Shown here in pieces: positions 62 to 38,345 of a stretch of 64,000 bases of DNA (its first letter is position 1; each line of letters begins with the position of its first letter). The stretch is from a virus. The notes under the pieces are model-generated. The model had not been told where the DNA came from. It was given only the letters and a program-made list of their open reading frames with translations, and ran no database searches. The stretch is from IMG/VR virus record IMGVR_UViG_3300044568_003163, positions 78,879-142,878 of that record. One strand, given 5' to 3'. A program made the position numbers and the translations under genes.

Positions 62-532
62 TTAGGCAAGCATATGAAGATTAGTTCTCAAAGCTCCAAT
101 AGCAGCATCAAAGGTTTCAAATACCGGTATTCCTGCTCGTGAGCAAATAATATCTACATTACCTTTTCGCCAAAATCCGGTAGGACAACAGACAATTACA
201 CGTTGATGAATTGCAGCACATACACCTAATTCCATTAATGTGATAGGACTTTTTGTGTCTGGTAAGATATTAAAGAATGCAATATCCGATTCAGTTAATT
301 GAGTCAATTCCCAATTTACTTGATGATTGAATTCTGGATTACTTTCCTTTTGTTCCCATGAAGAATCCCAATCATCTCTTCGAGGATTTAAGAAAGTAAC
401 ATCTTCGTCTTTAAAGATTTCAGTGATTGCAGTTTGCCAATCTTCGGCAACTCCCATTTCAATGGAACCAGCTAAAAATACGCTGGTTCCATCTATGATT
501 TGGTCTGATGAATTTGGTTTAATTACTTGCAT
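62..532 (-). CDS. Nucleoside 2-deoxyribosyltransferase-like protein
   Basis: This 156-aa protein resembles the nucleoside 2-deoxyribosyltransferase-like family. It has an N-terminal beta-strand with the glycine motif VFLAGSIEMG (residues 18-27) and a later helix start MELGVCAA, where the family carries its catalytic glutamate. Members cleave or exchange N-glycosidic bonds of nucleosides or nucleotides in the cytosol. Its start overlaps the end of the NAMPT-like gene by 14 bases, so the two are probably co-translated. That neighbourhood suggests work on nicotinamide or deoxynucleoside intermediates. The family call is a motif reading and the substrate is unknown. Confidence 0.6.
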   Translation of the reverse strand: MQVIKPNSSDQIIDGTSVFLAGSIEMGVAEDWQTAITEIFKDEDVTFLNPRRDDWDSSWEQKESNPEFNHQVNWELTQLTESDIAFFNILPDTKSPITLMELGVCAAIHQRVIVCCPTGFWRKGNVDIICSRAGIPVFETFDAAIGALRTNLHMLA

Positions 533-2054
533 TAGACAATTCCATTACTTTAGCTCGGATAGCTGTTAATGTTGTTCGATTATAGAATTTTCCATTTTCA
601 TAAATCGTTTGTAAGATACCCATATCTTCTTCAGTGTCGTTACATTGAGTTTGAACTACATAAGTTCCATCAACTTCAACAACTGCACATTTACCCTTTA
701 ATGACTTTTTAGTACCATCATCGGTAATTGGATCTTTAAAGATATCGTAACCTACTCCATTTGCCTCAAACCAAGCACCTTTTGCAGCATAACCGAAAGT
801 ATCACGAGTTGTAAATTGATATGTGAATGAACCTACACCTAATACAATATTCGTTGAAGCAAATCCTTTAGCTTCTAATCTTTCGTAGATTTGGATTTGT
901 CTTTCTAGATTAATTGAGTCTCCGTAGATAGCACCAATATGTGGATCTAGAACTTTATAACCTTGTTCGTTGATTGTACCACCAAAGATATCCCAAAGTA
1001 ATTCAATAACACCTTTAAATTCTGGCACATAAACATCTTCATCAATTTCTTCGGCAGTTAAAAGTTTATCACCTGATTGGTACATTCCTCTTCCGCAAAT
1101 AATATCTACCGGATCACCTGAATCAGGACGAATAACCAATTTACCGTCACGTGACATGATTTGCTCTTTGTTTGCAGGCAAATACTCAGTAATCAATTTC
1201 CATAAGTCGAATGTGTCAGCCACAATAGAAAGTATTCCTTTATCAAATTCAGTTAACCAATCAGAAATCATTTGTTGTTCACCTACCGTAAAGATTTTAG
1301 TAGTTGATACTGAGTGCTCAGAAGCATTTACTGAATTGATACAAACTTCGTTTTCTGGTTCGTCATAAAAATAACGAGCACCTGGAATAACTATGATTGA
1401 GTCAGATCCTCGGAATGAGAATGCATGACCTAATCCAGAAGATAAACTATCCCATGGAGAAAGTCCTCTGGCAGAAAAATCATGACATAAGAAGTCGATT
1501 AACCAAGCATTTGCAGGATCAGTTTTCATTACCCATTTAACAAGGTTTCTACGGTATTGTAATGCATAAGTTGCAGATGTAGCTGGTTTCCAAGCTAAAG
1601 AAGAGATAATAGTTTCTAAGTACAATGTCAACCAAGCAAAACCTTTAACAGTATTGATGAATGTCATATGAGGTACATTAGGATCAGTTTCAATTCCTTC
1701 TGGAAGAGCTTTGATACGAATAGGTAAGTAACCTAAATCATGGAGTGATTCAAAGTGCGAAGCATCGTAAGGCATACCTAAATATTGAGACATATCCACT
1801 CCAAATTGAGTAGCTGTTTCTTTTGGCATGTCGAAGAAATTTTCTTGCCATTCTGCATGCAACCAACTTACCGTTAATTGATGTCCAACCGAAAGAATTT
1901 TATTAACACCTTTTGGTGCATGTTTTAAACTTCTAGGAATCCAAGTTCCATATAAGAAATCTGTACCAGGAGCAAGCATCCTTTTATGGCCGACTTTGTA
2001 ACCATCAGAATAAAAAGGAGCAGGTGCTCGAAATGTTTTTTGTAGTTTTAACAT
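519..2054 (-). CDS. nadV: Nicotinamide phosphoribosyltransferase-like enzyme (NAMPT/NadV; possibly Namat-type)
   Basis: This 511-aa protein is close in length to human NAMPT (491 aa). It has the conserved HDFSARG segment, SVNASEHS with the catalytic histidine at residue 247, RPDSGD with R309 and D311, IYGDSINLERQ, and the C-terminal FKDPITDDGTKKS. NAMPT joins nicotinamide to PRPP to give NMN. In the phage NARP1 pathway a homologue instead joins nicotinamide to ADP-ribose pyrophosphate and yields NAD+ directly. A PRPP-synthetase-like gene about 1.3 kb upstream in the same direction fits either reading. The gene follows a terminator-promoter module (2072-2134). The family is secure; which donor is used cannot be read from the sequence. 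Confidence 0.92.
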   Translation of the reverse strand: MLKLQKTFRAPAPFYSDGYKVGHKRMLAPGTDFLYGTWIPRSLKHAPKGVNKILSVGHQLTVSWLHAEWQENFFDMPKETATQFGVDMSQYLGMPYDASHFESLHDLGYLPIRIKALPEGIETDPNVPHMTFINTVKGFAWLTLYLETIISSLAWKPATSATYALQYRRNLVKWVMKTDPANAWLIDFLCHDFSARGLSPWDSLSSGLGHAFSFRGSDSIIVIPGARYFYDEPENEVCINSVNASEHSVSTTKIFTVGEQQMISDWLTEFDKGILSIVADTFDLWKLITEYLPANKEQIMSRDGKLVIRPDSGDPVDIICGRGMYQSGDKLLTAEEIDEDVYVPEFKGVIELLWDIFGGTINEQGYKVLDPHIGAIYGDSINLERQIQIYERLEAKGFASTNIVLGVGSFTYQFTTRDTFGYAAKGAWFEANGVGYDIFKDPITDDGTKKSLKGKCAVVEVDGTYVVQTQCNDTEEDMGILQTIYENGKFYNRTTLTAIRAKVMELSNASN

Positions 2055-28035: not shown

Positions 28036-29649
28036 CTAGGATTTAGCAAGAGTTTCTTTCTTTGCTAATGCAATTCCTATTTTCTTTCCTTCTTCAACAT
28101 CTGAAGGATAATGAACTCCTGATAGGATTCTTGAGTTACCTATTTTATCAGCCAATTCACTCAATGAATTAGCTAAATGAGGATATTTGTTTGCTAACAT
28201 ACAAGCCATATAATGAGCACCACATGAATGCCCAGAAGGAAACGAATATGTGTTTGATGTAGTTCCACTTAAAGGAACTATGTTATGAGACATATATGGT
28301 CTAAGTCTTTGCCAAGCAACTTTCATGTTATTCACTAATTCAATATTGCCGTCATGCTTCCATAAGTCTTTTAATTCTTTCATTGAAGGTTTTTCTCCTC
28401 TGATGGTTAACCATTGATAGAAAAGTTCAGGTGGCGAATCATTTGCAGCAAGTGCAAATTTTTTATCTTCTTCGGTAGCTCTCTTCATTTCACTCTTAAC
28501 TAATCCAATTTCATGATTATCTTCGATTGTAAGATTTCCAGCTGGTGGCATTTTACCTAAGAAGTTATGATGTAAGGTGTTTGAAATTTCTTCTGGCAAA
28601 AATGAATAATCAGCACCAACACCCGGTGCATCAGTAGCCCATTCTTCGTTTATGCTTTCAAATAGAGGAGTTTCTTCTAATGCAATAAGTAAACCTATTC
28701 CATCTTTAGCCATCTTCCAATGAAATCCCGGTTTTATGTTATCTTTTATCAATTCAACATAAACTCTACCTCTCTTATTTAATTTACCTTCTTCGGTTTC
28801 TTCTCCAGGAGAATCAGCACCTACAAAATAAACTGTAACTGAAGGATGGAGATTTAGATACTCTTCGATGATAGCTTGGATAGTAGAAAAAACTTTACTA
28901 ACCTCAGTCATAGAAGATAATCCATTACCAGCAGATTTTAATTTATCAGATTCAAAGAAACATAAAGTAGATTTTAAAGCTAACGCATTAAACTTAACGA
29001 TGTAATGGTCGCTTGAACCTGAAAATTGAACTCTGGAATTACCATGATTACTAGCTATAATAGTCCATGGATATTTAAAATCAGTAAGCTTTCTTTCGTT
29101 TAAAGAATTTTTAGTATTTGCCATGTAATTCAATCTCATTCCTTTAGGAATGCCTTGATAAACTCCTTCGTTCTTTTTAAGGAATTTATTTTCACAATAA
29201 TTTACCCATTTAGAGAATATGTCAATAGGAGTTCGATGGCCATTATTTTCGTAGTTTTGATAGAATGTACCTATTCCGTGTTTTAGGAAATATATGTTAC
29301 TTTCTTTAGGGACTATGTCATCGTCGTTTCTACCAAATACTATGGTATTGACTGCACGTTTAGTTCCCATTCTAACTATTGGGTCGAATGATCGACTATG
29401 GACTGCCGGATTAAAAAGTAATGTAGGTATTCCGGTTAATGTGCCTATGCAATAAGCAAACCAACCACCCATAGAAGAACCTATTAGGAGATCGATTTTA
29501 TTTTTCTTAACTTCGGCTAAGGTTTTTTCGAAAAGTCCGTTGTCGTGATAGTCCATTGGTGGATCGTAAACATAATCAAACTTTTCTAAGAATTCGTTTT
29601 TGTCAGTTTTAGGTGAGGACTCAAGTCCATGGAAGAATGCAACTCGCAT
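28036..29649 (-). CDS. Fusion: serine esterase, middle domain, PAP2-type phosphatase, 537 aa
   Basis: N-terminal residues (about 1-150) form an alpha/beta-hydrolase of the YqiA/UPF0227 type with the nucleophile elbow IGSSMGGW and late NGHRT (His). The middle (about 160-400) is unassigned. The C-terminus (about 410-530) has all three PAP2 motifs: KVAWQRLRP, SFPSGHS and SRILSGVHYPSD. PAP2 enzymes remove phosphate from lipids or sugar phosphates. No signal peptide or membrane span is seen, so both active sites face the cytosol. Co-transcription with a glycosyltransferase suggests lipid or surface modification; this is inference. Confidence 0.8.
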   Translation of the reverse strand: MRVAFFHGLESSPKTDKNEFLEKFDYVYDPPMDYHDNGLFEKTLAEVKKNKIDLLIGSSMGGWFAYCIGTLTGIPTLLFNPAVHSRSFDPIVRMGTKRAVNTIVFGRNDDDIVPKESNIYFLKHGIGTFYQNYENNGHRTPIDIFSKWVNYCENKFLKKNEGVYQGIPKGMRLNYMANTKNSLNERKLTDFKYPWTIIASNHGNSRVQFSGSSDHYIVKFNALALKSTLCFFESDKLKSAGNGLSSMTEVSKVFSTIQAIIEEYLNLHPSVTVYFVGADSPGEETEEGKLNKRGRVYVELIKDNIKPGFHWKMAKDGIGLLIALEETPLFESINEEWATDAPGVGADYSFLPEEISNTLHHNFLGKMPPAGNLTIEDNHEIGLVKSEMKRATEEDKKFALAANDSPPELFYQWLTIRGEKPSMKELKDLWKHDGNIELVNNMKVAWQRLRPYMSHNIVPLSGTTSNTYSFPSGHSCGAHYMACMLANKYPHLANSLSELADKIGNSRILSGVHYPSDVEEGKKIGIALAKKETLAKS

Positions 29650-29725: not shown

Positions 29726-30319
29726 TTATGCTCTTGGTCGTCCTAACATAATTTTGTCGTGAGCTCCACCAGCAATATTTCTAGTGTACCAACCATCACC
29801 AGAAGCATCTGGCATAGTACCAATCCATTGAACTTGTTTACCTAAAACTTTAGTAACTACATCAATATCAGTTACTACTGGCACATCATATTTGTTGATT
29901 AAGATTTCCGCGATTTTACCAGAAACTTCGATATAGAATCCCATCTTTTTAAGGTCGACTCCTCTAGCTTCAATGTAAGCACGTTTAGCATCTTTGGTTC
30001 CGTCATGTCCTACTCCTGAGAATTTAACTCCAAATTTAGTTCTTTGACCAAACATTACCATATCAAAATCTCTGGTTCCGTGAATATCTTCACCTTCCCA
30101 ATAATTCCAATCTGGATCTGCAAACACATCTTCAGGAGATTTTATTTTAATGTGACCTCCAATTTCGGCATATGCCGTTTGTATCAAATCGAAAAATTCT
30201 CCAGCTAATTCTGGATATTTCTTATGATTGAATAGTAAAGCCTTTCCTCTTGGTGGTTTTAAATCACCAGAAGAAGTTATTTCGTTTACGTACTCTTCGT
30301 ATTTTTTAAATGTTGTCAT
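29726..30319 (-). CDS. Leader-bearing putative packaged protein, 197 aa (paralogue of the next gene)
   Basis: It begins MTTFKKYEEYVNE, the leader shared across this cassette, with a T4-like processing end (V-N-E) before residue 14. The rest is mixed alpha/beta, with GKALLFNHKKYPELAGEFFD and a C-terminal WYTRNIAGGAHDKIMLG. It resembles the upstream 185-aa protein in the order of segments (e.g. VPVVTDIDVVTKVLG versus VPVVDDFEVIQNIVG). No named family. Last gene of the cassette; its start overlaps the upstream stop by 4 bases. Confidence 0.8.
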   Translation of the reverse strand: MTTFKKYEEYVNEITSSGDLKPPRGKALLFNHKKYPELAGEFFDLIQTAYAEIGGHIKIKSPEDVFADPDWNYWEGEDIHGTRDFDMVMFGQRTKFGVKFSGVGHDGTKDAKRAYIEARGVDLKKMGFYIEVSGKIAEILINKYDVPVVTDIDVVTKVLGKQVQWIGTMPDASGDGWYTRNIAGGAHDKIMLGRPRA

Positions 30320-30873
30320 TTTAATTTACCGTATATTCGTTTTGTAATTCGTTTTCCTGCTTTTGAAAGAAATCTAGAGTAATATCCGTCTTCTTCCATT
30401 TGTGGTTGTTTATGCTTACCTACAATATTTTGAATTACTTCAAAATCATCTACTACTGGAACTTTAGAATCCACTAAGATTTCTTCCATTCTTTTCGATG
30501 CTTCGATAAACCAACCTTTAGTATTTACTAAGTCAATAACTTTCGTTATCAATTCTCGTTTAGCACCTTTCTTTTCGTTAGTACCTAATAGAGCAATCTT
30601 GTTTCCATAAGCAGTTTCCTTATAAATAATGAATGCATCTGGTTTGTGATCGGAATCTACGTCTTTTAGATAAGTAGCTTTATATTTCGTCTTTAATTCA
30701 TGAGCATCATCAGCAGAAAAATCTAGACCTTCTTTAGAATATGTATCGGTGTACATTTTCCAAATTAAGTCTTCTGCCTCTTTATCTAATTTAGACATAT
30801 CAATATTAACCCACTTACCAGTAGGAATCGACATTTCACTTACAAATTCGTTATATTTTTTAAATTGTGTCAT
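30316..30873 (-). CDS. Leader-bearing putative packaged protein, 185 aa
   Basis: The leader MTQFKKYNEFVSE is followed by a mixed alpha/beta domain with KPDAFIIYKETAYGNKIALL and a strongly basic C-terminus (KAGKRITKRIYGKLK). It is paralogous to the downstream 197-aa protein. The basic end may contact DNA in the capsid. Start and stop overlap neighbours by 4 bases each. Confidence 0.8.
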   Translation of the reverse strand: MTQFKKYNEFVSEMSIPTGKWVNIDMSKLDKEAEDLIWKMYTDTYSKEGLDFSADDAHELKTKYKATYLKDVDSDHKPDAFIIYKETAYGNKIALLGTNEKKGAKRELITKVIDLVNTKGWFIEASKRMEEILVDSKVPVVDDFEVIQNIVGKHKQPQMEEDGYYSRFLSKAGKRITKRIYGKLK

Positions 30874-31340
30874 TTTATTAGTTTTACCGATTTTTTAGGT
30901 TCAATTACAACTACATTAGTTGTACGTATATATTTGTTTCCTTTTACTGGATGACTTCCGGCATCCATAATATTTTGAAAGACTATTCCATCAAAACCTT
31001 TATCTATAGCTGCTCTAACAAAATGGTCAGTCTTTATAGATTTAATTTCAGGATTTGGTTTGTATCTATCGAAATCTTCGGGTTTCATTCCTAATTTTTT
31101 AGCTTCGGCTTTTGCAGCTATCTCAGGTAACCACCAACCTTCAGCTGAACTAAAATCTAAAGTAACAAATTTCTTAAGGATGATTTGATATGGTCCAGTA
31201 ACCTTTCCGTAAGATTGTGCTATTAATAAACTATCAGTAAAATATATTGGTTTGTTAAAATCTACATCTCCACCATGATACATCAAATCAAATTTTTCTG
31301 ATTCGTTTAAGAACTCGTCATATTTTTTAAATGTCGTCAT
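30870..31340 (-). CDS. Leader-bearing ADP-ribosyltransferase-like protein, 156 aa
   Basis: After the leader MTTFKKYDEFLNE, the sequence LMYHGGD (H22), IYFTDSLLIAQSYG (Tyr-Gly in the second motif) and GFDGIVFQNI follows the H-Y-[E/Q] layout of ADP-ribosyltransferases of the polyvalent-protein type. Such enzymes move ADP-ribose from NAD+ onto host proteins. T4 packages a comparable enzyme, Alt, with a similar leader. It would be injected with the DNA. The third catalytic residue is not certain from sequence alone. Confidence 0.72.
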   Translation of the reverse strand: MTTFKKYDEFLNESEKFDLMYHGGDVDFNKPIYFTDSLLIAQSYGKVTGPYQIILKKFVTLDFSSAEGWWLPEIAAKAEAKKLGMKPEDFDRYKPNPEIKSIKTDHFVRAAIDKGFDGIVFQNIMDAGSHPVKGNKYIRTTNVVVIEPKKSVKLIK

Positions 31341-31732
31341 TAATCTCCAGTTCCTTTGTATATTATTTTAATTGCCTTAGCAGGAATATTTTCAAATGTA
31401 ATTATACGTTTGTCTTTCAAATCAAAATTTGGATCTACGTACCATATATTCTTAAGATTAGTTGTATCTATTTGATAGATGTCATCATCATAAGTTGAAT
31501 CCCACCAATCTTTCTTATTATCACTATTAACTGCAAATATAACTTTGCCATCAATATTGGTGTCAGATAACCAAGTCTCACTTTTACCTTTAGTAATCAA
31601 TCCTTCTTTAGAAATAATATTTCTATAATGAGGATTTGATGTATGATATAAGTATCTGTTTGGTTTTACTTCAATTAAGCGAGAATTAGCACTTTCATTT
31701 ATCCATTTTTCGTATAGAGGCAAATTTCTCAT
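31340..31732 (-). CDS. Leader-bearing second ADP-ribosyltransferase-like protein, 130 aa
   Basis: The leader MRNLPLYEKWINE precedes NRYLYHTSNPHYRNIISKEGL (H30 in the first ART motif) and KVIFAVNSD. The pattern YHTS...I..EGL...IFA is seen in short ART-fold proteins (KptA/DarT-like edge). A late acidic/aromatic region (YDDDIYQIDT) could hold the final motif. Its substrate is unknown. Packaged role inferred from the leader. Confidence 0.62.
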   Translation of the reverse strand: MRNLPLYEKWINESANSRLIEVKPNRYLYHTSNPHYRNIISKEGLITKGKSETWLSDTNIDGKVIFAVNSDNKKDWWDSTYDDDIYQIDTTNLKNIWYVDPNFDLKDKRIITFENIPAKAIKIIYKGTGD

Positions 31733-32130
31733 ATCTTTGCTTTAAGTATTTTCATATTAATAGCCTTGTCTCCTTTTATGATTTGTGATGCTATTCGATG
31801 ATGTCCATCAAAAACGATTACTGTTCCATTTTTAAATTGTACACCAGTAGGCATTTCGGTCTTTTTACTTTTTGAATATAAATTAACCGTAGTTGAATTC
31901 AAATAATCTTGATTTGGAACTATTTTGTTTATGTCTATAGATAAAGTTTTAGCTTTATCGAATGCCTTAATTTTTAAATTTGCGTTATCCTCTTCATCGT
32001 ATCCTAATTCAGATCTCCAAAAATCCTTCATATCTAAATATGAATCCGTAGTCATCTTTTGTTTGAATACGTTTAACAATTTCGTATTATCCTCATTAAG
32101 CCAGTCTTCATATATAGGCAAATTTCTCAT
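31729..32130 (-). CDS. Leader-bearing ParB/Srx-like protein, 133 aa
   Basis: The leader MRNLPIYEDWLNE is followed by a helical part and then VQFKNGTVIVFDGHHRIASQ, which matches the ParB/sulfiredoxin-fold signature DGHHR that binds nucleotide. KAINMKILKAKI closes the fold. ParB-like proteins include nucleases and CTPases. Its presence among packaged proteins suggests DNA or nucleotide handling early in infection. Confidence 0.7.
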   Translation of the reverse strand: MRNLPIYEDWLNEDNTKLLNVFKQKMTTDSYLDMKDFWRSELGYDEEDNANLKIKAFDKAKTLSIDINKIVPNQDYLNSTTVNLYSKSKKTEMPTGVQFKNGTVIVFDGHHRIASQIIKGDKAINMKILKAKI

Positions 32131-33212
32131 TACAGAAGATTCTTTTTAGCTCTTTTTATATATTCGGTAACTAAACCTCGGATTTTGTTCATTGCCGCTA
32201 TTGCAGCCGGAGTTTCAGCCTTATTGAATTTAGGAGAGTTATAAGCTTCCATCATTCCTTTCTCATATTGTTTTACTACTGCCTGCATAAATTCTTTTGC
32301 CGACTTATATTTTAAAACAGTACCAAATTCTCCTATTTGTTCAAGAGTATCAGCCACCGCTAATATTCCATCACACAAATCATCAAATGTAGGAGAATCA
32401 GGATTAACACCTTTCCATTGTTGTAATGATTCAGAAGGCACAAAAGGCTTTCCAGGATTAGATTGGTCCCAAAAGAATCTAGCAATATCCATCATAAAAG
32501 TAGACGAACTTAAAGTAATTAATCGATCTTCAACATTTGAACGTTTAGAATAAGGCACCATTAAATCACCTTGAAATCTTGCTCTAATTCCTCTTGGTTG
32601 TATTGAAATTTCTAAAGCCTCACCGAATGACGAGTATAACTTACCAATTACAAATCCTTTAACGTTTTTCTCTGGAGTAAAACGGAAAACTGCCCATGAT
32701 GAATATTCTTTATGAGTTACCACTAAGTCCACTTGCACATAACCTATTTCACCAGTTCTTAAAGGAACTGTTACTAATAATTTTAGAGATGCATCAGTAG
32801 AAATAGATTTTGTTTCTTCTACGTCTATACCTTCAGGTGTTTCAGCTTCTAGCCACATTAGCAGCTCTTGATTATACAATTTAACAGTAGCAATCTCATC
32901 AGCTCGTGGATCTTTACTTGTAAGTTTAAGTACCGGATATGCGATCATGTAATCTACATCTCCGTATAATTTTTCAGGTTGATTTTTTAAATCATCTTCC
33001 CACCAAGTACCAGATCCTATAGGCTTCAAAAAGTCTAAAGATGGTAATTCCAATTCTCGTAAATGTCCATTGAAATCTTCGGAAATCCTAGCTACGACCT
33101 TCGTTACTTTTTGGATAACGTCTGGAGTTAAAGGAGTTTCCTGAGTTTTAGTAGTTGACCAACCGCCTTCGTTGATAGTCAACCATTCGTTATATAGTTG
33201 TAAGTTTCTCAT
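32130..33212 (-). CDS. Leader-bearing nucleotidyltransferase-like protein, 360 aa
   Basis: The leader MRNLQLYNEWLTINE has the I-N-E processing end. The following domain has IGSGTWWEDD, then YGDVDYMIAYP and later YVQVDLVV: the GS...DxD...D arrangement of pol-beta nucleotidyltransferases, with all three acidic residues. The C-terminal half is helical and ends YIKRAKKNLL. It could add nucleotides to a protein, RNA or small molecule. It is the longest protein of the cassette. Confidence 0.7.
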   Translation of the reverse strand: MRNLQLYNEWLTINEGGWSTTKTQETPLTPDVIQKVTKVVARISEDFNGHLRELELPSLDFLKPIGSGTWWEDDLKNQPEKLYGDVDYMIAYPVLKLTSKDPRADEIATVKLYNQELLMWLEAETPEGIDVEETKSISTDASLKLLVTVPLRTGEIGYVQVDLVVTHKEYSSWAVFRFTPEKNVKGFVIGKLYSSFGEALEISIQPRGIRARFQGDLMVPYSKRSNVEDRLITLSSSTFMMDIARFFWDQSNPGKPFVPSESLQQWKGVNPDSPTFDDLCDGILAVADTLEQIGEFGTVLKYKSAKEFMQAVVKQYEKGMMEAYNSPKFNKAETPAAIAAMNKIRGLVTEYIKRAKKNLL

Positions 33213-33219
33213 AATTTTG

Positions 33220-33585
33220 TTATTCTATTAACTTTTCTACATAAGTGCAGGTTTCTCCTGCATCAAATCCCTTTTCGATAAGTAGTGATAGTGAGGCCGG
33301 TTTACACCAAGCATATACAAGCCAACCTGAATATTTACTTTGTACGTATTCCCATCGAGTATTCCAAAGTTTTCTAAAGATTCCTTTTCTTCTATGCTCT
33401 TCTTGTACCCAGGCATCTAAGAATTTAATCTTCTGATCCTTTTCTCTTTCCATATAGATATGGCCTACAATATCACCATTTATCATTGCAATCCAAGTTT
33501 CTAATTGCTGGGCATTGCTCTTTAGGTGAATTATTTTTATATCTTCTATAAAAGAATTCGATACTTCATTCAAAACATTACTCAT
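33220..33585 (-). CDS. GNAT acetyltransferase, 121 aa
   Basis: A GNAT fold is visible: strand GDIVGHIYME, then AWVQEEHRRKGIFRKLW with the acetyl-CoA loop (R/Q-x-x-G-x-x) and a C-terminal LIEKGFDAG. It starts MSNVLNEVSN, which has an LNE triplet but lacks the aromatic part of the cassette leader. GNATs acetylate amines of small molecules or proteins. Position within the cassette suggests delivery with the virion or an early role. Confidence 0.82.
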   Translation of the reverse strand: MSNVLNEVSNSFIEDIKIIHLKSNAQQLETWIAMINGDIVGHIYMEREKDQKIKFLDAWVQEEHRRKGIFRKLWNTRWEYVQSKYSGWLVYAWCKPASLSLLIEKGFDAGETCTYVEKLIE

Positions 33586-33601
33586 TATATTTATAAGTTT
33601 C

Positions 33602-33898
33602 TCATATTGCAGGTAAAGACAAATCTAATGTTTCTGGTATGTGTTTATATTTGTTGTAAACGTTATTAGACACTATGTAGGATTTGATAAATCTTTCCAT
33701 TTCTGCAATACTACCAAAGGTATGACCTCCGAAATCGATATCAATTCCTTTATAAAATGGAGTATAATTTGCAACAGTACGACCAGCTTGTTTTTGCTCT
33801 CTTTGTTTTTTCCAAATAATTCCGTCATTACCTTTTACTTCATCTGGCCATTTAGTAGATTCGTTAAGAAACTCGTCGTATTTTTTAAATTGTGTCAT
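33602..33898 (-). CDS. Leader-bearing putative packaged protein, 98 aa
   Basis: It has the leader MTQFKKYDEFLNE, then a short mixed domain (KWPDEVKGNDGIIWKKQREQ, ... GGHTFGSIAEMERFIKSYI). No known family. The start lies 2 bases after the flavodoxin-like gene. Confidence 0.75.
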   Translation of the reverse strand: MTQFKKYDEFLNESTKWPDEVKGNDGIIWKKQREQKQAGRTVANYTPFYKGIDIDFGGHTFGSIAEMERFIKSYIVSNNVYNKYKHIPETLDLSLPAI

Positions 33899-33899
33899 A

Positions 33900-34643
33900 T
33901 TATTTAGTATTTCTTTTTAACCACTGATTAAATGATTCGGTTATTTTAGTTAGGGTTGCTTTATACGTAGCCTTAAAATCTTTTGGTTCTTGAATATAAC
34001 CTTCGGCAGTTTCGTCATGTAAATCAGAAGTCCATTGCCAATGAAAACATAATTCATTAGGCACATCAAATCCATAAAATTTAAGGACTTGCTTTTGTTT
34101 TTCTAATTCCGTACCGCCATTCCAATTGTGACCAGTTAAAACAATACCAGCTAATTTACCTTCTAAAATATTATTTTCTTCTAGGGTAGTCCATCGATTT
34201 TCTAACCAATTTAAGCGTTCGATTAGTTTTTGATAGACTGCGTTAACTGAACCCCATCGAATCGAACCTAAAAATATAACGGCATCAGCTTCTAATAAAG
34301 GTTTGCTCACTTTCCAAAGTTCATCGTCTTTGTGATTAATAGAAGCCCAACAACGATGACATCCACTCGGATTTTTAGTTGCATCTTTTAGTATGGAATC
34401 TTTTACTCCACATGAATTTCCTTTTGAAGTAGAAACATTACCTTCGCATTGATAGATGTGCAATTTAGTAACGTCGACAATTTCGCAAGTAGATGAACCT
34501 AATTCATCTTGAATCATTTGTGCCAATTGAGAGGACTTAGGAATATCATCACTACCTTCCCATCGAGTCGATGTGGTAAGTAGGAGTACCTTCTTTCCTC
34601 TGAGATGAGTGGTCAATCTTTGTAAATCGTGGTTGCTATTCAT
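33900..34643 (-). CDS. Flavodoxin-like NAD(P)H-dependent FMN reductase, 247 aa
   Basis: The N-terminal strand KVLLLTTSTRWEGSDDIPKSS corresponds to the FMN phosphate loop region. GCHRCWASIN and ADAVIFLGSIRWGSVNAVYQK follow the pattern of multimeric flavodoxin/iron-sulfur flavoproteins, where W-S-x-N-A-x-x-K lines the flavin. The protein has no cassette leader. It would reduce flavin or quinones in the cytosol. Why it sits in the cassette is unclear; redox poise after injection is one possibility. Confidence 0.75.
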   Translation of the reverse strand: MNSNHDLQRLTTHLRGKKVLLLTTSTRWEGSDDIPKSSQLAQMIQDELGSSTCEIVDVTKLHIYQCEGNVSTSKGNSCGVKDSILKDATKNPSGCHRCWASINHKDDELWKVSKPLLEADAVIFLGSIRWGSVNAVYQKLIERLNWLENRWTTLEENNILEGKLAGIVLTGHNWNGGTELEKQKQVLKFYGFDVPNELCFHWQWTSDLHDETAEGYIQEPKDFKATYKATLTKITESFNQWLKRNTK

Positions 34644-34644
34644 A

Positions 34645-35295
34645 TTATTTAGATGTCCAAACTACTCCACCACCACCATCTTCGATATGGAATTTAGCTT
34701 TTGGATATTTTCTTTTCATGTCTTCGTATTTAGCCGGAATCAAGTCTCGGATTTTAATGTCATTTGATTGACCAACTACCTTTCCATATTCTAAAGCAAC
34801 AATAGACCAAGGTCCGTTATCACCAGTTTTTACGCCTTTCATCATCACTGCCCAAACTCCTTCGTTAACAACAGATTCGTTACGCATATCTGCTAGATAT
34901 GCATCGGTTAAATCGGTTATTAGGTCTAGCAATTCGTTTTTCTTATTAATATTTAACCCGGCCATATCGATAATATCATCGATTTCCTTTGCAACCTCTT
35001 TTACCTCTTTATCAGAGTTTCTATAATAATCGGTTAGAGACATTGCCTCATTAATAGAAGATTCATTATAAGGAATTACTCCTAATTTTTGATCGGCTTT
35101 AGCGATCATATCCTCTACCTTTTTACAAGCAGATTGAATGCCTTTTAAAGCAACAATCCATTTAGGAGCTGATATGTCCTTCTTTAATAGCTCATCGATT
35201 TTATCTTGAAGGTTAGTTATGTCACTCCCAATTTCATCAAAAATAAAATATTGACCTTCGTTTAAGAATTCTTCGTATGTTTGTAAGTTTTTCAT
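34645..35295 (-). CDS. Leader-bearing putative packaged protein, 216 aa
   Basis: The leader MKNLQTYEEFLNE is followed by helical segments (DIIDMAGLNINKKNELLDLI) and a C-terminal part ending FHIEDGGGGVVWTSK. Two NE-containing segments further in (SSINEAMSL and SVVNEGVWA) could be extra processing sites. No family recognised. Confidence 0.76.
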   Translation of the reverse strand: MKNLQTYEEFLNEGQYFIFDEIGSDITNLQDKIDELLKKDISAPKWIVALKGIQSACKKVEDMIAKADQKLGVIPYNESSINEAMSLTDYYRNSDKEVKEVAKEIDDIIDMAGLNINKKNELLDLITDLTDAYLADMRNESVVNEGVWAVMMKGVKTGDNGPWSIVALEYGKVVGQSNDIKIRDLIPAKYEDMKRKYPKAKFHIEDGGGGVVWTSK

Positions 35296-35693
35296 TATTT
35301 GTAATTTTTATTTAAGTACCAATTAATATCCTCTTTAGCATAACCTAAAAGCTCGCCAATTCTTTTGCTCTCCTGTTTAGTAGCCTCATATGATAAATAT
35401 CCGCCATATTTATTAGCAATCTTTGCTAATTCTTTAGCTTTTTTCTCGGCACCTTTATTAAAATAAATATAAGCGTCGAATGGATTTCCTGGTAATTTGA
35501 TTGTTCCTAAGTTGTGAGTCTTAACCAAATCCCAAAATTCATCTATACTTAAATCAACTGTGGTTTTTAAAGTAATAAATCCTAAATCTCTCTTTCCGTC
35601 TATAACAGTTTGTACCGCACTTTTATCTCGGTGGGCTTCTTCTGCCTTAATAGTTTCGTTTACGAATTCGTCGTATGTAGGAATGTGTTTCAT
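35295..35693 (-). CDS. Leader-bearing putative packaged protein, 132 aa
   Basis: It starts MKHIPTYDEFVNE. The body is helical and basic, with FNKGAEKKAKELAKIANKYG, and ends NWYLNKNYK. No family recognised. Both ends overlap neighbours by a base (TAATG). Confidence 0.76.
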   Translation of the reverse strand: MKHIPTYDEFVNETIKAEEAHRDKSAVQTVIDGKRDLGFITLKTTVDLSIDEFWDLVKTHNLGTIKLPGNPFDAYIYFNKGAEKKAKELAKIANKYGGYLSYEATKQESKRIGELLGYAKEDINWYLNKNYK

Positions 35694-36232
35694 TATATTT
35701 TTCCGGCTTTTACTCTATCTCTAGAAACGCTGTTGATGTATTTTAATTCATCTGCATTTAGTTTAGGAGCAATTAGTTTTTTCCATTGACCTTCTTGTTT
35801 AGCTCTTGGTAATTGCAAAAATTCAATAACGTCTTGGTCATCTTTTAACTTGCTAATTATCGATTGGACTGCTTTATCTCGCCAATGTTCTTTCCACCAC
35901 ATTTTCAAATCATCAACTGGGTGAAAATCTACTCTATTAGCTAACAGTGCAATTTGTCCTCCAATTGCAGCAGCCTGTAACATAAGGATTGCAGTCATTG
36001 CATCTTCATTTAAGAATTCTTCGGATTCTTTTAAATATCCTTCGTCACTCCAACCAGCTATAAAAGAGATATCTCCTTTTGCTCGGCCTTCTAAAAATTT
36101 CACCTTTGTATTTTGATTTTTACCTAAATCAATAACTTCAAATTTACCTAATTTAGGGTGAGTGTAAATTTTGCCAACGATAAAATTAGATTTCTCGTTT
36201 AAGAATTCCTCGTATGTTTGTAAGTTTCTCAT
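35693..36232 (-). CDS. Leader-bearing putative packaged protein with a second internal LNE site, 179 aa
   Basis: The leader MRNLQTYEEFLNE is followed by a short beta domain (about 15-65) with YTHPKLGKFEVIDLGKNQN. A second site ESEEFLNED at about 71-79 follows, and then a hydrophobic-helical domain (MTAILMLQAAAIGGQIALLAN) with a basic C-terminus. Two leader-like sites suggest it is cut into two pieces. No family recognised. Confidence 0.76.
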   Translation of the reverse strand: MRNLQTYEEFLNEKSNFIVGKIYTHPKLGKFEVIDLGKNQNTKVKFLEGRAKGDISFIAGWSDEGYLKESEEFLNEDAMTAILMLQAAAIGGQIALLANRVDFHPVDDLKMWWKEHWRDKAVQSIISKLKDDQDVIEFLQLPRAKQEGQWKKLIAPKLNADELKYINSVSRDRVKAGKI

Positions 36233-36366
36233 TATCTTCCTTGTCCTTTGTATTTTTTAGGCTTTTCTTCTTTAGGCCCAAAGTGTTTTTTGGCTTTGCC
36301 AGTACTCTTCGTTTTAGTTATCTTAACCGAAGTAGTTGTAGTTGATTTGCTTTTAGTAGCGGCCAT
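36232..36366 (-). CDS. Small strongly basic protein, 44 aa
   Basis: ATG at 36366 gives 44 residues with about 14 lysines (MAATKSKSTTTTSVKITKTK...), ending YKGQGR, and overlaps the next ATG (TAATG). It has no leader. Such Lys-rich peptides condense or coat DNA; in the cassette it may be packaged with the genome. Function is inferred from composition. Confidence 0.68.
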   Translation of the reverse strand: MAATKSKSTTTTSVKITKTKSTGKAKKHFGPKEEKPKKYKGQGR

Positions 36367-36412
36367 GGTGTTACATGATATTTTTATTTTTGCGTTTTAT
36401 TCATTTAGAGTT

Positions 36413-36436
36413 CACCAGATAAACGATTTACTGGTG
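36413..36436. other. Inverted repeat, possible RNA hairpin
   Basis: CACCAG (36413-36418) and CTGGTG (36431-36436) flank TAAA-CGA-TTTA with one bulged base, giving about 10 pairs. It lies in the 141-bp gap between the 138-aa and 44-aa genes. No T run follows on the minus strand, so it looks more like a processing or regulatory hairpin than a classical terminator. Confidence 0.45.
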
Positions 36437-36507
36437 TTATAATACCTACTAACCAGAGAACAATTTTTAAACGTGGATTACACGATTTCTCTTACTAATC
36501 AGTGGTT

Positions 36508-36924
36508 TTATTGTATGTCTTCTTTTCTGTATTCTGGTGCAATTGTTGCAGCCGGTAATTGAGTAGCTAAATCAGTCGTACCTTCATTAACCGTAGCCTT
36601 ATAACCAAATTTTGATCGTAAAGCTTTAATTGCGGCAATAGCCTTTGCTTCATCTTCGAAGGAGTCGTCCATAAAAATAGAAATTTGTTCAGGTGCTAAA
36701 TCTTCAGCACCGTTTTTCATTTTTAAAGGCGATATAGTAACATTAACAATAGCGGCAAAGTTATTTCTCATTGTTCCCGCAACTCCACCCTCAACAACTA
36801 CACATTGATTTTCATCGAAGTGTAGTGCGTCTTTCCAACATGATTTCCATGTCTTATTAGCCGGAGTAGCTGATTGAAATTTAGCACCATCAGCTAAAAA
36901 TTCGTTTAGAGATTCATGTAACAT
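36508..36924 (-). CDS. Leader-bearing putative packaged protein, 138 aa
   Basis: The start MLHESLNEFLADGAK is the second leader style of the cassette. The rest is a mixed domain with VVEGGVAGTMRNNFAAIVNV and an acidic middle. No named family. A 141-bp gap follows before the basic 44-aa gene. Confidence 0.74.
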   Translation of the reverse strand: MLHESLNEFLADGAKFQSATPANKTWKSCWKDALHFDENQCVVVEGGVAGTMRNNFAAIVNVTISPLKMKNGAEDLAPEQISIFMDDSFEDEAKAIAAIKALRSKFGYKATVNEGTTDLATQLPAATIAPEYRKEDIQ

Positions 36925-36927
36925 AAT

Positions 36928-37263
36928 CTATTTAGGTGACCATTCTTTTTTGTCAAAATCTTCGATGTTTAACATGGCTTGTATCGACTTTTCAAAATGA
37001 ATATTTACTCGACCCCAAAAAAATCCAGTAGTAGGAGCAAATTCCGTATTCCAAAATTTACGATCTCTCAATCTATCCAAACAATCTTTTGTAACTCCTT
37101 TTGGATCGTCATAGACGATATTAAGATAGCCATTTACATCCTCAGTTCTAAACTTAATTTTACTAGAAAATCCATGTAAAGCTTGTAAGATGTCAATTAA
37201 ATCATTTGCAGTTCCTCTACCTTCATTTAAGAAAGTTTCTAGTGATTCGTGTAATGAGCTCAT
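36928..37263 (-). CDS. Leader-bearing putative packaged protein, 111 aa
   Basis: The leader MSSLHESLETFLNE is followed by a compact domain (LIDILQALHGFSSKIKFRTE; FAPTTGFFWGRVNIHFEKS). No family recognised. Start overlaps the upstream stop (TAATG-type). Confidence 0.74.
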   Translation of the reverse strand: MSSLHESLETFLNEGRGTANDLIDILQALHGFSSKIKFRTEDVNGYLNIVYDDPKGVTKDCLDRLRDRKFWNTEFAPTTGFFWGRVNIHFEKSIQAMLNIEDFDKKEWSPK

Positions 37264-37700
37264 TATTTGATGTATTTTTTTCTAATAATTTCCTCAGCCT
37301 TTTCAATCTCTTTCGGAGACCAACCATAGAGCTTACCTATCTCGGTGGCAACCTCTAATGGGTCGTCTGAAGTCTTAAATTGATTGATGTGCATTTTAAT
37401 GGTTGCATCATTTACCGGTTGTTTGCTCTCATTTAAGAAGGCTTCAAAGCTTTCCATAAGATTACTTGATTCGCTCACTTCTGCTTCATATACAGTTCCT
37501 ATTACATCACTAGCATTACTAAATTTCTTAATGTGACTACTCACATCCTTTAGCTTTTTGATAATAGCATCTAATTCTTTAGGGTCAACATCATTACCGG
37601 AAGTAACTCGATCGGTAAATACATTTAACTTTATGCGAGCTACGAATAGTTCGGTTTTGACTACATCTTTCGGTAATCGATAGAAAGTTCCTTCGTTCAT
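37263..37700 (-). CDS. Putative packaged protein with an internal leader-like site, 145 aa
   Basis: I start at the ATG at 37700 (MNEGTFYRLPKDV), because the longer frame to 37757 overlaps the HExxH gene. At residue 82 the sequence MESFEAFLNESK occurs, a full cassette leader inside the protein, beginning with a methionine at 37457. This could be two proteins joined, a cleavable fusion, or a nested second start giving a 64-aa product. The C-terminal part is helical (EVATEIGKLYGWSPKEIEKA). No family recognised. Confidence 0.68.
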   Translation of the reverse strand: MNEGTFYRLPKDVVKTELFVARIKLNVFTDRVTSGNDVDPKELDAIIKKLKDVSSHIKKFSNASDVIGTVYEAEVSESSNLMESFEAFLNESKQPVNDATIKMHINQFKTSDDPLEVATEIGKLYGWSPKEIEKAEEIIRKKYIK

Positions 37701-37704
37701 AATA

Positions 37705-38085
37705 TTATTTCTTGCTCCAAAGTAAATCTGAAAAATCCGAGTACATGTACTTGTCAATTAGAGAATTCTCTAGTTTTTTAAATTTTTGTTGTTGGTCAGC
37801 TTTACCTAAATAAGGATTTCCTTCGGTTTGAAGTTTTATCTGATGAGTTAATTCATGTAAGATAGCTTGTTCCGGATCAACCATTCTCGACAAATCAAAT
37901 GAGATATAAAGAGCTTGATTTGTCTTAGCATTGTAAGAAGTACATGCACCACCATGAGCAACCTTTTCAAATTTCAAAGGTAATTCCTTAACTCTCTCAG
38001 CTTTACATACCGCAGAATAGTAAGCCTTAACATTAGCTTGACTAACGGCTTCATTAAGAAACTCTTCTAATGATTCGTGTAACAT
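37705..38085 (-). CDS. Leader-bearing protein with HExxH metalloprotease-like motif, 126 aa
   Basis: The leader MLHESLEEFLNE is followed by a domain with AILHELTHQIKLQTEGNPY, a HExxH motif with a possible later ligand, as in zincin proteases. The remaining length is short, so this may be a minimal protease or a metal-binding protein. If active it would cut host or capsid proteins. It starts 2 bases after the 67-aa gene. Confidence 0.72.
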   Translation of the reverse strand: MLHESLEEFLNEAVSQANVKAYYSAVCKAERVKELPLKFEKVAHGGACTSYNAKTNQALYISFDLSRMVDPEQAILHELTHQIKLQTEGNPYLGKADQQQKFKKLENSLIDKYMYSDFSDLLWSKK

Positions 38086-38087
38086 AA

Positions 38088-38291
38088 TTATTTCTTTTGT
38101 TCTAAGCCATCACTATAAGCCCAACGAATAGCTGAAAATACATCAGCAGCTAAAGGAGAATTAAATGTCGAACCTTTCATTGACAACCCGAATTTCTTAA
38201 ATTGTTTAAATGCCTGAATAGCATATTCTCTCGCTTCATCATCACCGGAAGATTCAATTAAATACTCGTCGTATGTTGGTAAGTTTTTCAT
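38088..38291 (-). CDS. Leader-bearing putative packaged protein, 67 aa
   Basis: It starts MKNLPTYDEYLIE, the cassette leader with an L-I-E end. The rest is one helical domain (AREYAIQAFKQFKKFGLS) and a basic tail. First gene of the cassette. No family recognised. Confidence 0.72.
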   Translation of the reverse strand: MKNLPTYDEYLIESSGDDEAREYAIQAFKQFKKFGLSMKGSTFNSPLAADVFSAIRWAYSDGLEQKK

Positions 38292-38345
38292 TGTAGCAAC
38301 TTCTTTTTTATTATGTATCTCAGACTCCCTCGATTAGCTATCGAA

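Follow-up and report, generated by a model that had tools for sequence, protein, structure and literature searches.

Leader-bearing genes of a T4-like jumbo phage predicted to encode exchangeable capsid cargo

Background

Short N-terminal leaders, the capsid targeting sequences (CTS), precede the internal proteins IPI, IPII and IPIII and the Alt protein of phage T4. In the IPIII leader, residues 4 and 7 are needed for targeting and residues 8 and 10 for processing; with Asp at position 10, a protein is still targeted but no longer processed (PMC9026906). T4 internal proteins bearing a CTS have been shown to inhibit type IV restriction enzymes (PMC12373910). Among the ejection proteins of the SPN3US/phiKZ-type giant phages, several have propeptides of more than 100 residues, and just one propeptide is as short as a CTS (PMC5694885). 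ART and GNAT domains of polyvalent proteins and MuF-fused ARTs were predicted by Iyer, Aravind and colleagues to be packed in the head and injected (PMC9503650; PMC7824862), and the N-terminal 30 residues of phage P1 DarB suffice for directing cargo to the capsid (PMC9024508). Here we analyse a cassette of genes sharing a leader, located at positions 29726–38291 of a 64-kb stretch of DNA (the window) which comprises bases 78879–142878 of the virus record IMGVR_UViG_3300044568_003163 (294,034 bases; hereafter G000).

As judged from the gene sequences, this leader very probably directs proteins to the capsid in the manner of the T4 internal proteins and is cut by the prohead protease that the phage itself encodes, the cargo being exchangeable and partly in polyprotein form. 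A search of the openly accessible literature found no description of such cargo in these phages.

Results and discussion

Leader genes of the cassette and of the whole record

By scanning for open reading frames (ORFs) and start codons, 17 ORFs of at least 60 aa were identified in the cassette, all on the minus strand and tightly packed. Thirteen of them (29726, 30316, 30870, 31340, 31729, 32130, 33602, 34645, 35295, 35693, 36928, 37705 and 38088) begin with a full leader ending in (L/I/V)xE, three (36508, 33220 and 37263) have a degenerate form and one, the FMN-reductase-like gene at 33900, has no leader. These counts confirm the original prediction that most genes of the cassette share a T4-style leader. 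Elsewhere in the window, no leader was found. When the remainder of the record was scanned likewise, the leader pattern matched 55 of the 446 ORFs of G000, compared with 1.9 on average, and never more than 6, in 200 shuffles of the N-terminal residues. At least 51 of the matches are convincing, so that the search for further leader genes proposed with the original prediction revealed a larger set than had been reported. With a profile built from 40 leaders, 56 matches with an expected value (E) of 1 or better were obtained in G000 and 24–31 in several relatives. A second, larger cluster of leader genes is located at approximately 165–181.5 kb of the record, and several leader genes adjoin the portal, protease and capsid genes. 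The leaders are 10–20 residues long, which rules out long propeptides (often more than 100 residues) of the SPN3US/phiKZ type, and the residue following the leader Glu (P1') is Ser in 20 and Ala in 12 of the 55 matches.

Head proteins and layout of the leader

The 294-kb record is that of a T4-like jumbo phage. Its capsid protein is of the gp23 type (Pfam Gp23, E 4.9e-36), and the gp21-type prohead protease for which a search had been suggested is present in the adjoining gene (G000:245208–247121), as a Peptidase_S77 domain of the T4 gp21 family (E 1.5e-12; PHROG head maturation protease, E 2.1e-40). Within the same protein, the protease is followed by a long scaffold-like region; a pattern search of bacterial and archaeal genomes found no relative of this protease-scaffold fusion. 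The gene beside it (G000:247178) is portal-like by its position and by its match to the corresponding gene of G003, a distantly related phage (IMGVR_UViG_3300023184_000042, 132 kb).

The T4 leader sequence, which we take to be MKTYQEFIAE↓A (the arrow marks the cut, here and below the predicted one), has Y, F, I and E at residues 4, 7, 8 and 10. The spacing of IPIII, Y4-x-x-F7-I8-x-E10, equals that of F7-x-x-F10-V11-x-E13 here, with the order F/Y-x-x-F-L/I/V-x-E kept. The likeness to T4 capsid targeting noted originally thus extends to the spacing of the IPIII residues used for targeting and for processing.

The most likely course of events is as follows. Late in infection, the leader proteins would bind the prohead core via the aromatic/hydrophobic face of the leader, and the S77 protease-scaffold would cut after (L/I/V)-x-E, with a preference for Asn before the Glu and for Ser, Ala or Gly after it. 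Cutting would remove the leader, separate cargo polyproteins into modules and degrade the scaffold. The freed domains (GNAT-fold, ART-like, RimK-like, NMNAT-like, ferritin-like and many unknowns) would stay in the head with the DNA and would probably enter the host with it, where some may counter defences or modify host proteins.

Replacement of the leader between phages

The strongest evidence for capsid targeting is comparative: the same cargo stands behind unrelated LxE leaders, and the modules of putative polyproteins correspond to stand-alone proteins, divided at the predicted sites. The ART-like protein of 30870–31340 has a relative in G003 with 82% identity, in which the domain follows VIKLKDLLKE↓S. 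The capsid, portal and protease proteins of the two phages are only 21–29% identical (capsid, 24%), and G003 has its own S77 protease (E 6.5e-31). The cargo leaders of G003, MIKLKDLLKE↓ and MKKSELRSLIREQVKAILKE↓, are unrelated to the leader of the window and also end in LxE, and the start of the G003 scaffold, MKDLLKE↓A, resembles its cargo leader MIKLKDLLKE↓S. Further leader cargo common to G000 and G003 is 25–76% identical. Ordinary accessory genes are also common to the two, some with 56–83% identity, indicating that exchange is not confined to cargo.

The cargo family represented by 30316–30873 and 29726–30319 has 68 distinct homologous ORFs in viral contigs, in which the domain is preceded by prefixes of at least five kinds: MKxxKLYEEFINE↓, MIKLKDLLKE↓, MSFNLxKYFKNQYLLE↓, MKLTKILLE↓ and polyprotein junctions such as FMTE↓A. 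At the domain junction, [LIVMF]xE was present in all 67 scorable homologues, compared with 1 to 30 of 68 in other windows of the domain. No significant Pfam or PDB sequence match was found for the family of 30316–30873. Its AlphaFold2 model (predicted local distance difference test 88, with leader residues 1–10 disordered) matched GNAT acetyltransferases in Foldseek (best E 3.3e-4, probability 1.00), and all 7 matches below 0.001 were acetyl- or acyltransferases of the GNAT fold.

These comparisons bear on the idea that the leader is a translation or expression element spread by recombination, without a function as a peptide. Such an element would fit the AT-rich start contexts common to the upstream regions. 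However, codon use differs among the leader copies although the residues are conserved, so that the similarity is maintained at the protein level and does not reflect recent DNA duplication, and the LxE junction is kept in homologous cargo despite wholly different leader DNA and protein. We regard an expression element as hardly credible; varying codons together with LxE in unrelated leaders rule out an origin as a translation element or by recent duplication.

Under the capsid-targeting interpretation, cargo genes would move among distantly related phages and acquire the leader and cleavage motif of the recipient. It is likely that this clade of T4-like phages, probably together with some of the largest known phages (records of 462–735 kb), shares a mobile pool of capsid cargo, with dozens of effector modules per phage, present as single genes or protease-cut polyproteins and re-addressed in this way on moving between unrelated heads. 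Nearly all relatives with capsid proteins at least 74% identical have leader genes near the head genes; a 462-kb phage has a cargo homologue behind MKFLKSYEEFLNE↓ and a 735-kb record contains GNAT cargo. Using the leader profile, none of this leader type was detected in PAU, PTm1 and Flavobacterium phage MaF61, and only weak matches were detected in Tenacibaculum phage pT24 and Lak phage A2.

Internal cleavage motifs and polyprotein modules

Counted beyond residue 28, the motif [LIV]NE[SAG] occurs 20 times in the 10,778 residues of the leader proteins (shuffles 1.9, maximum 5) and 6 times in the 64,828 residues of the other ORFs (shuffles 9.2). The difference is approximately 20-fold (1.86 vs 0.09 per 1000 residues; Fisher P 6e-12, calculated with 19 vs 6 since one of the 20 is a start-site artefact). 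The protease-scaffold contains eight [LIV]NE, as expected, since the scaffold must be removed. In most of the clade, the capsid proteins have a conserved [LIM]xE↓[NS] near residue 43, the place expected for the end of a T4-type propeptide; this putative site is assigned by position only and has a different P2 residue (Y).

Several long leader proteins match stand-alone leader proteins elsewhere, with module borders at predicted sites. In G003, the segment of G000:175113 C-terminal to FLNE↓G forms a gene of its own. G002 has as separate genes the C-terminal module of window 34645–35295 after VVNE↓G, there a stand-alone leader protein, and the NMNAT-like part of G000:170429 after LNE↓N. G003:11808–13202 fuses modules present in G000:178603, 169016 and 167853, and the 911-aa protein of G003:88375 holds relatives of window 30316–30873 and of G000:180224. 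If the leader were instead an uncut N-terminal docking tag for the replication compartment or another phage-made assembly, it would make no sense for the motif to recur within the scaffold and where internal modules join, and Glu precedes the junction throughout in otherwise unrelated leaders. A docking tag is therefore very improbable.

Nature of the cargo

Other leader cargo in the record includes a RimK-like ligase (E 1.9e-34), a ferritin-like protein (E 1.5e-20), a CTP_transf/NMNAT-like protein (E 2.8e-5) and a KTSC protein (E 8.4e-14), and many leader proteins lack any domain match. It is possible, but unlikely, that the leader proteins are directed to the prohead and cut, yet serve mostly as head-core or assembly components like T4 gp67/gp68 and not effectors. 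The leader genes adjoining head genes and the absence of an enzyme domain from most leader proteins are consistent with such a role. On the other hand, many leader proteins have enzyme folds (GNAT, ART-like, RimK, CTP_transf and ferritin) without a role in assembly, and the genes of the cassette and the cluster are variable among relatives and exchanged with distant phages.

We infer that the leader proteins are packaged and trimmed, which is well supported because of the protease, the capsid protein, the more than 50 leader genes, the T4 layout, the scaffold motif and the replacement of leaders. Their injection and action as effectors would follow, the load probably being delivered into the host with the DNA. 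Several points weigh against the interpretation as packaged effectors. Some leaders are degenerate and one cassette gene is leaderless; some leader proteins, above all those encoded next to the portal, protease and capsid, may belong to the head core; for cargo without a recognisable domain, the label "effector" is a guess; and enrichment of the internal motif is weaker in G003 (1.83 vs 0.64 per 1000 residues). In addition, a link of leader genes to the promoter-like sequence GATATATAATAAA, which was spotted by eye and afterwards scanned, is suggestive only (P 0.086 if 4 of the 12 genes are taken as sure leader genes, P 0.004 if 6 are).

A late-promoter-like site, GATACATAATAAA (38307–38319, minus strand), with one mismatch to GATATATAATAAA, is located 28 nt before the start of the cassette's first gene. 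GATATATAATAAA-like sites also precede the protease-scaffold gene and further virion genes by 26–29 nt, and a related site stands 32 nt ahead of the first gene in the large cluster, the real start of which gives MKLLKFNDFVKKLNE↓S. The T4 late promoter, TATAAATA, was not enriched before leader or structural genes. The ferritin-like protein (G000:34529–35071) begins with the degenerate leader MNIINE↓S, and its gene is preceded at 27 nt by a late-type promoter.

In the window, 519–2054 (minus strand) appears by eye to encode a nicotinamide phosphoribosyltransferase-like protein. Together with the NMNAT-like leader protein of G000:170429, it suggests nicotinamide adenine dinucleotide salvage next to ART-like cargo; similar-looking genes lie next to the GNAT cargo in the 735-kb phage (L215:7565 and 9568).

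If packaging and delivery of the cargo are correct, a short sequence rule reveals the packed and probably injected proteins of many uncultured jumbo phages, which otherwise requires virion proteomics, and dozens of "hypothetical proteins" per genome become candidates for anti-defence or host takeover. It would also suggest that phages trade capsid cargo as addressed modules, a testable model for the evolution of injected arsenals, and would provide new pairs of leader and protease with which proteins could be loaded into phage heads.

Genes of the cassette

The first cassette gene (38088–38291) encodes a 67-aa leader protein, MKNLPTYDEYLIE↓S. The leader protein of 37705–38085, MLHESLEEFLNE↓A, contains an HExxH motif (HELTH); it has no Pfam match and was assigned to no family. 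At 37263–37703, the protein has a degenerate leader (likely start MNE↓G), an internal site SFEAFLNE↓S and a weak SAM-like match, and 36928–37263 has the leader MSSLHESLETFLNE↓G. The variant leader of 36508–36924, MLHESLNEFLAD↓G, has Asp at P1; the protein has an internal TVNE↓G and a homologue in G002. With Asp at the cut position this protein may remain uncut, as compared with the T4 leader carrying Asp at position 10 (PMC9026906). A very lysine-rich ORF of 44 aa (MAATKSKSTTTTSVKITKTKSTGKAKKHFGPKEEKPKKYKGQGR, 36235–36366, minus strand), situated between two leader genes, could encode a small DNA-binding virion protein.

A two-module leader protein, MRNLQTYEEFLNE↓K with EEFLNE↓D further along, is encoded at 35693–36232, a leader protein with MKHIPTYDEFVNE↓T at 35295–35693, and a polyprotein with MKNLQTYEEFLNE↓G and internal SSINE↓A and SVVNE↓G at 34645–35295. 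As stated originally, the flavodoxin-like and GNAT proteins lack the full leader: the former, FMN reductase-like (33900–34643; FMN_red, E 3.8e-7), has none, and the GNAT acetyltransferase (33220–33585; Acetyltransf_1, E 1e-5) has a truncated one, MSNVLNE. Between them, 33602–33898 encodes a leader protein with MTQFKKYDEFLNE↓S. This GNAT was the only one claimed; as 29726 and 30316 are also GNAT-fold paralogues, there are at least three GNAT-like proteins.

The 360-aa leader protein of 32130–33212, MRNLQLYNEWLTINE↓G (variant EWLTINE↓G), had been described as nucleotidyltransferase-like, but family searches gave no assignment; direct comparison with G000:166687 showed no relation. The leader protein of 31729–32130, MRNLPIYEDWLNE↓D, remains ParB-like by its DGHHR motif alone. 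One of the two proposed ART-like proteins (30870–31340, MTTFKKYDEFLNE↓S) has a weak ART-PolyVal match (E 1.1e-3) and no match in the phage collection; the other, KptA/ART-like (31340–31732, MRNLPLYEKWINE↓S), weakly matches an RNA 2'-phosphotransferase family (phrog_5470, E 2.5e-4). The remaining two genes, 30316–30873 (MTQFKKYNEFVSE↓M) and its paralogue 29726–30319 (MTTFKKYEEYVNE↓I), encode the GNAT-fold cargo family, assigned from the AlphaFold2 model and Foldseek.

Just downstream of the cassette, window 28036–29649 (minus strand) encodes a 537-aa protein with UPF0227 (esterase-like) and PAP2 domains. Elsewhere in the record, 35 transfer RNA genes are clustered at G000:63592–71268 (L005:5092–12768); G003 has 21 (L109:201–3293).

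Comparison with known systems

In the cultured Sphingomonas phage PAU, a series of genes adjacent to those for the portal, protease and capsid (genes 142–154, approximately 106–114 kb of record L097) encodes proteins starting with MKTLTQLYE↓A or KLNEA, the scaffold included. Two of these genes are annotated as internal capsid protein, on a basis not known to us; the leader sequence differs from that found here and the genes are few. P1 DarB likewise has an N-terminal packaging signal, but it is a single very large protein of an unrelated phage. Polyvalent proteins are long multidomain chains or MuF fusions, whereas the cargo described here consists of small individual proteins, or of polyproteins with predicted cut sites, which are addressed by a leader. 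Rather than many effector domains in one long uncut chain, the proteins are mostly single-domain and the polyproteins match stand-alone genes.

The SPN3US/phiKZ-type giant phages have many different ejection proteins that undergo cleavage by the prohead protease and are packaged together with the genome, as is predicted here from the genes, but differ in that a leader of 10–20 residues is common to dozens of genes here. In T4, the leaders of IPI, IPII, IPIII and Alt have the same aromatic/hydrophobic/Glu spacing, and T4 also has a gp21-family protease, a gp23-family capsid protein and cargo including ART-like proteins. T4 has three internal proteins and Alt, compared with at least 51 leader genes in 446 ORFs here. 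Unlike in T4, the cargo includes predicted polyproteins with internal cleavage sites and is arranged in two large operons, the protease and scaffold are fused, and leader families are replaced between phages. New features are the number of cargo genes, the organization of cargo as polyproteins, and its exchange between phages with the address replaced.

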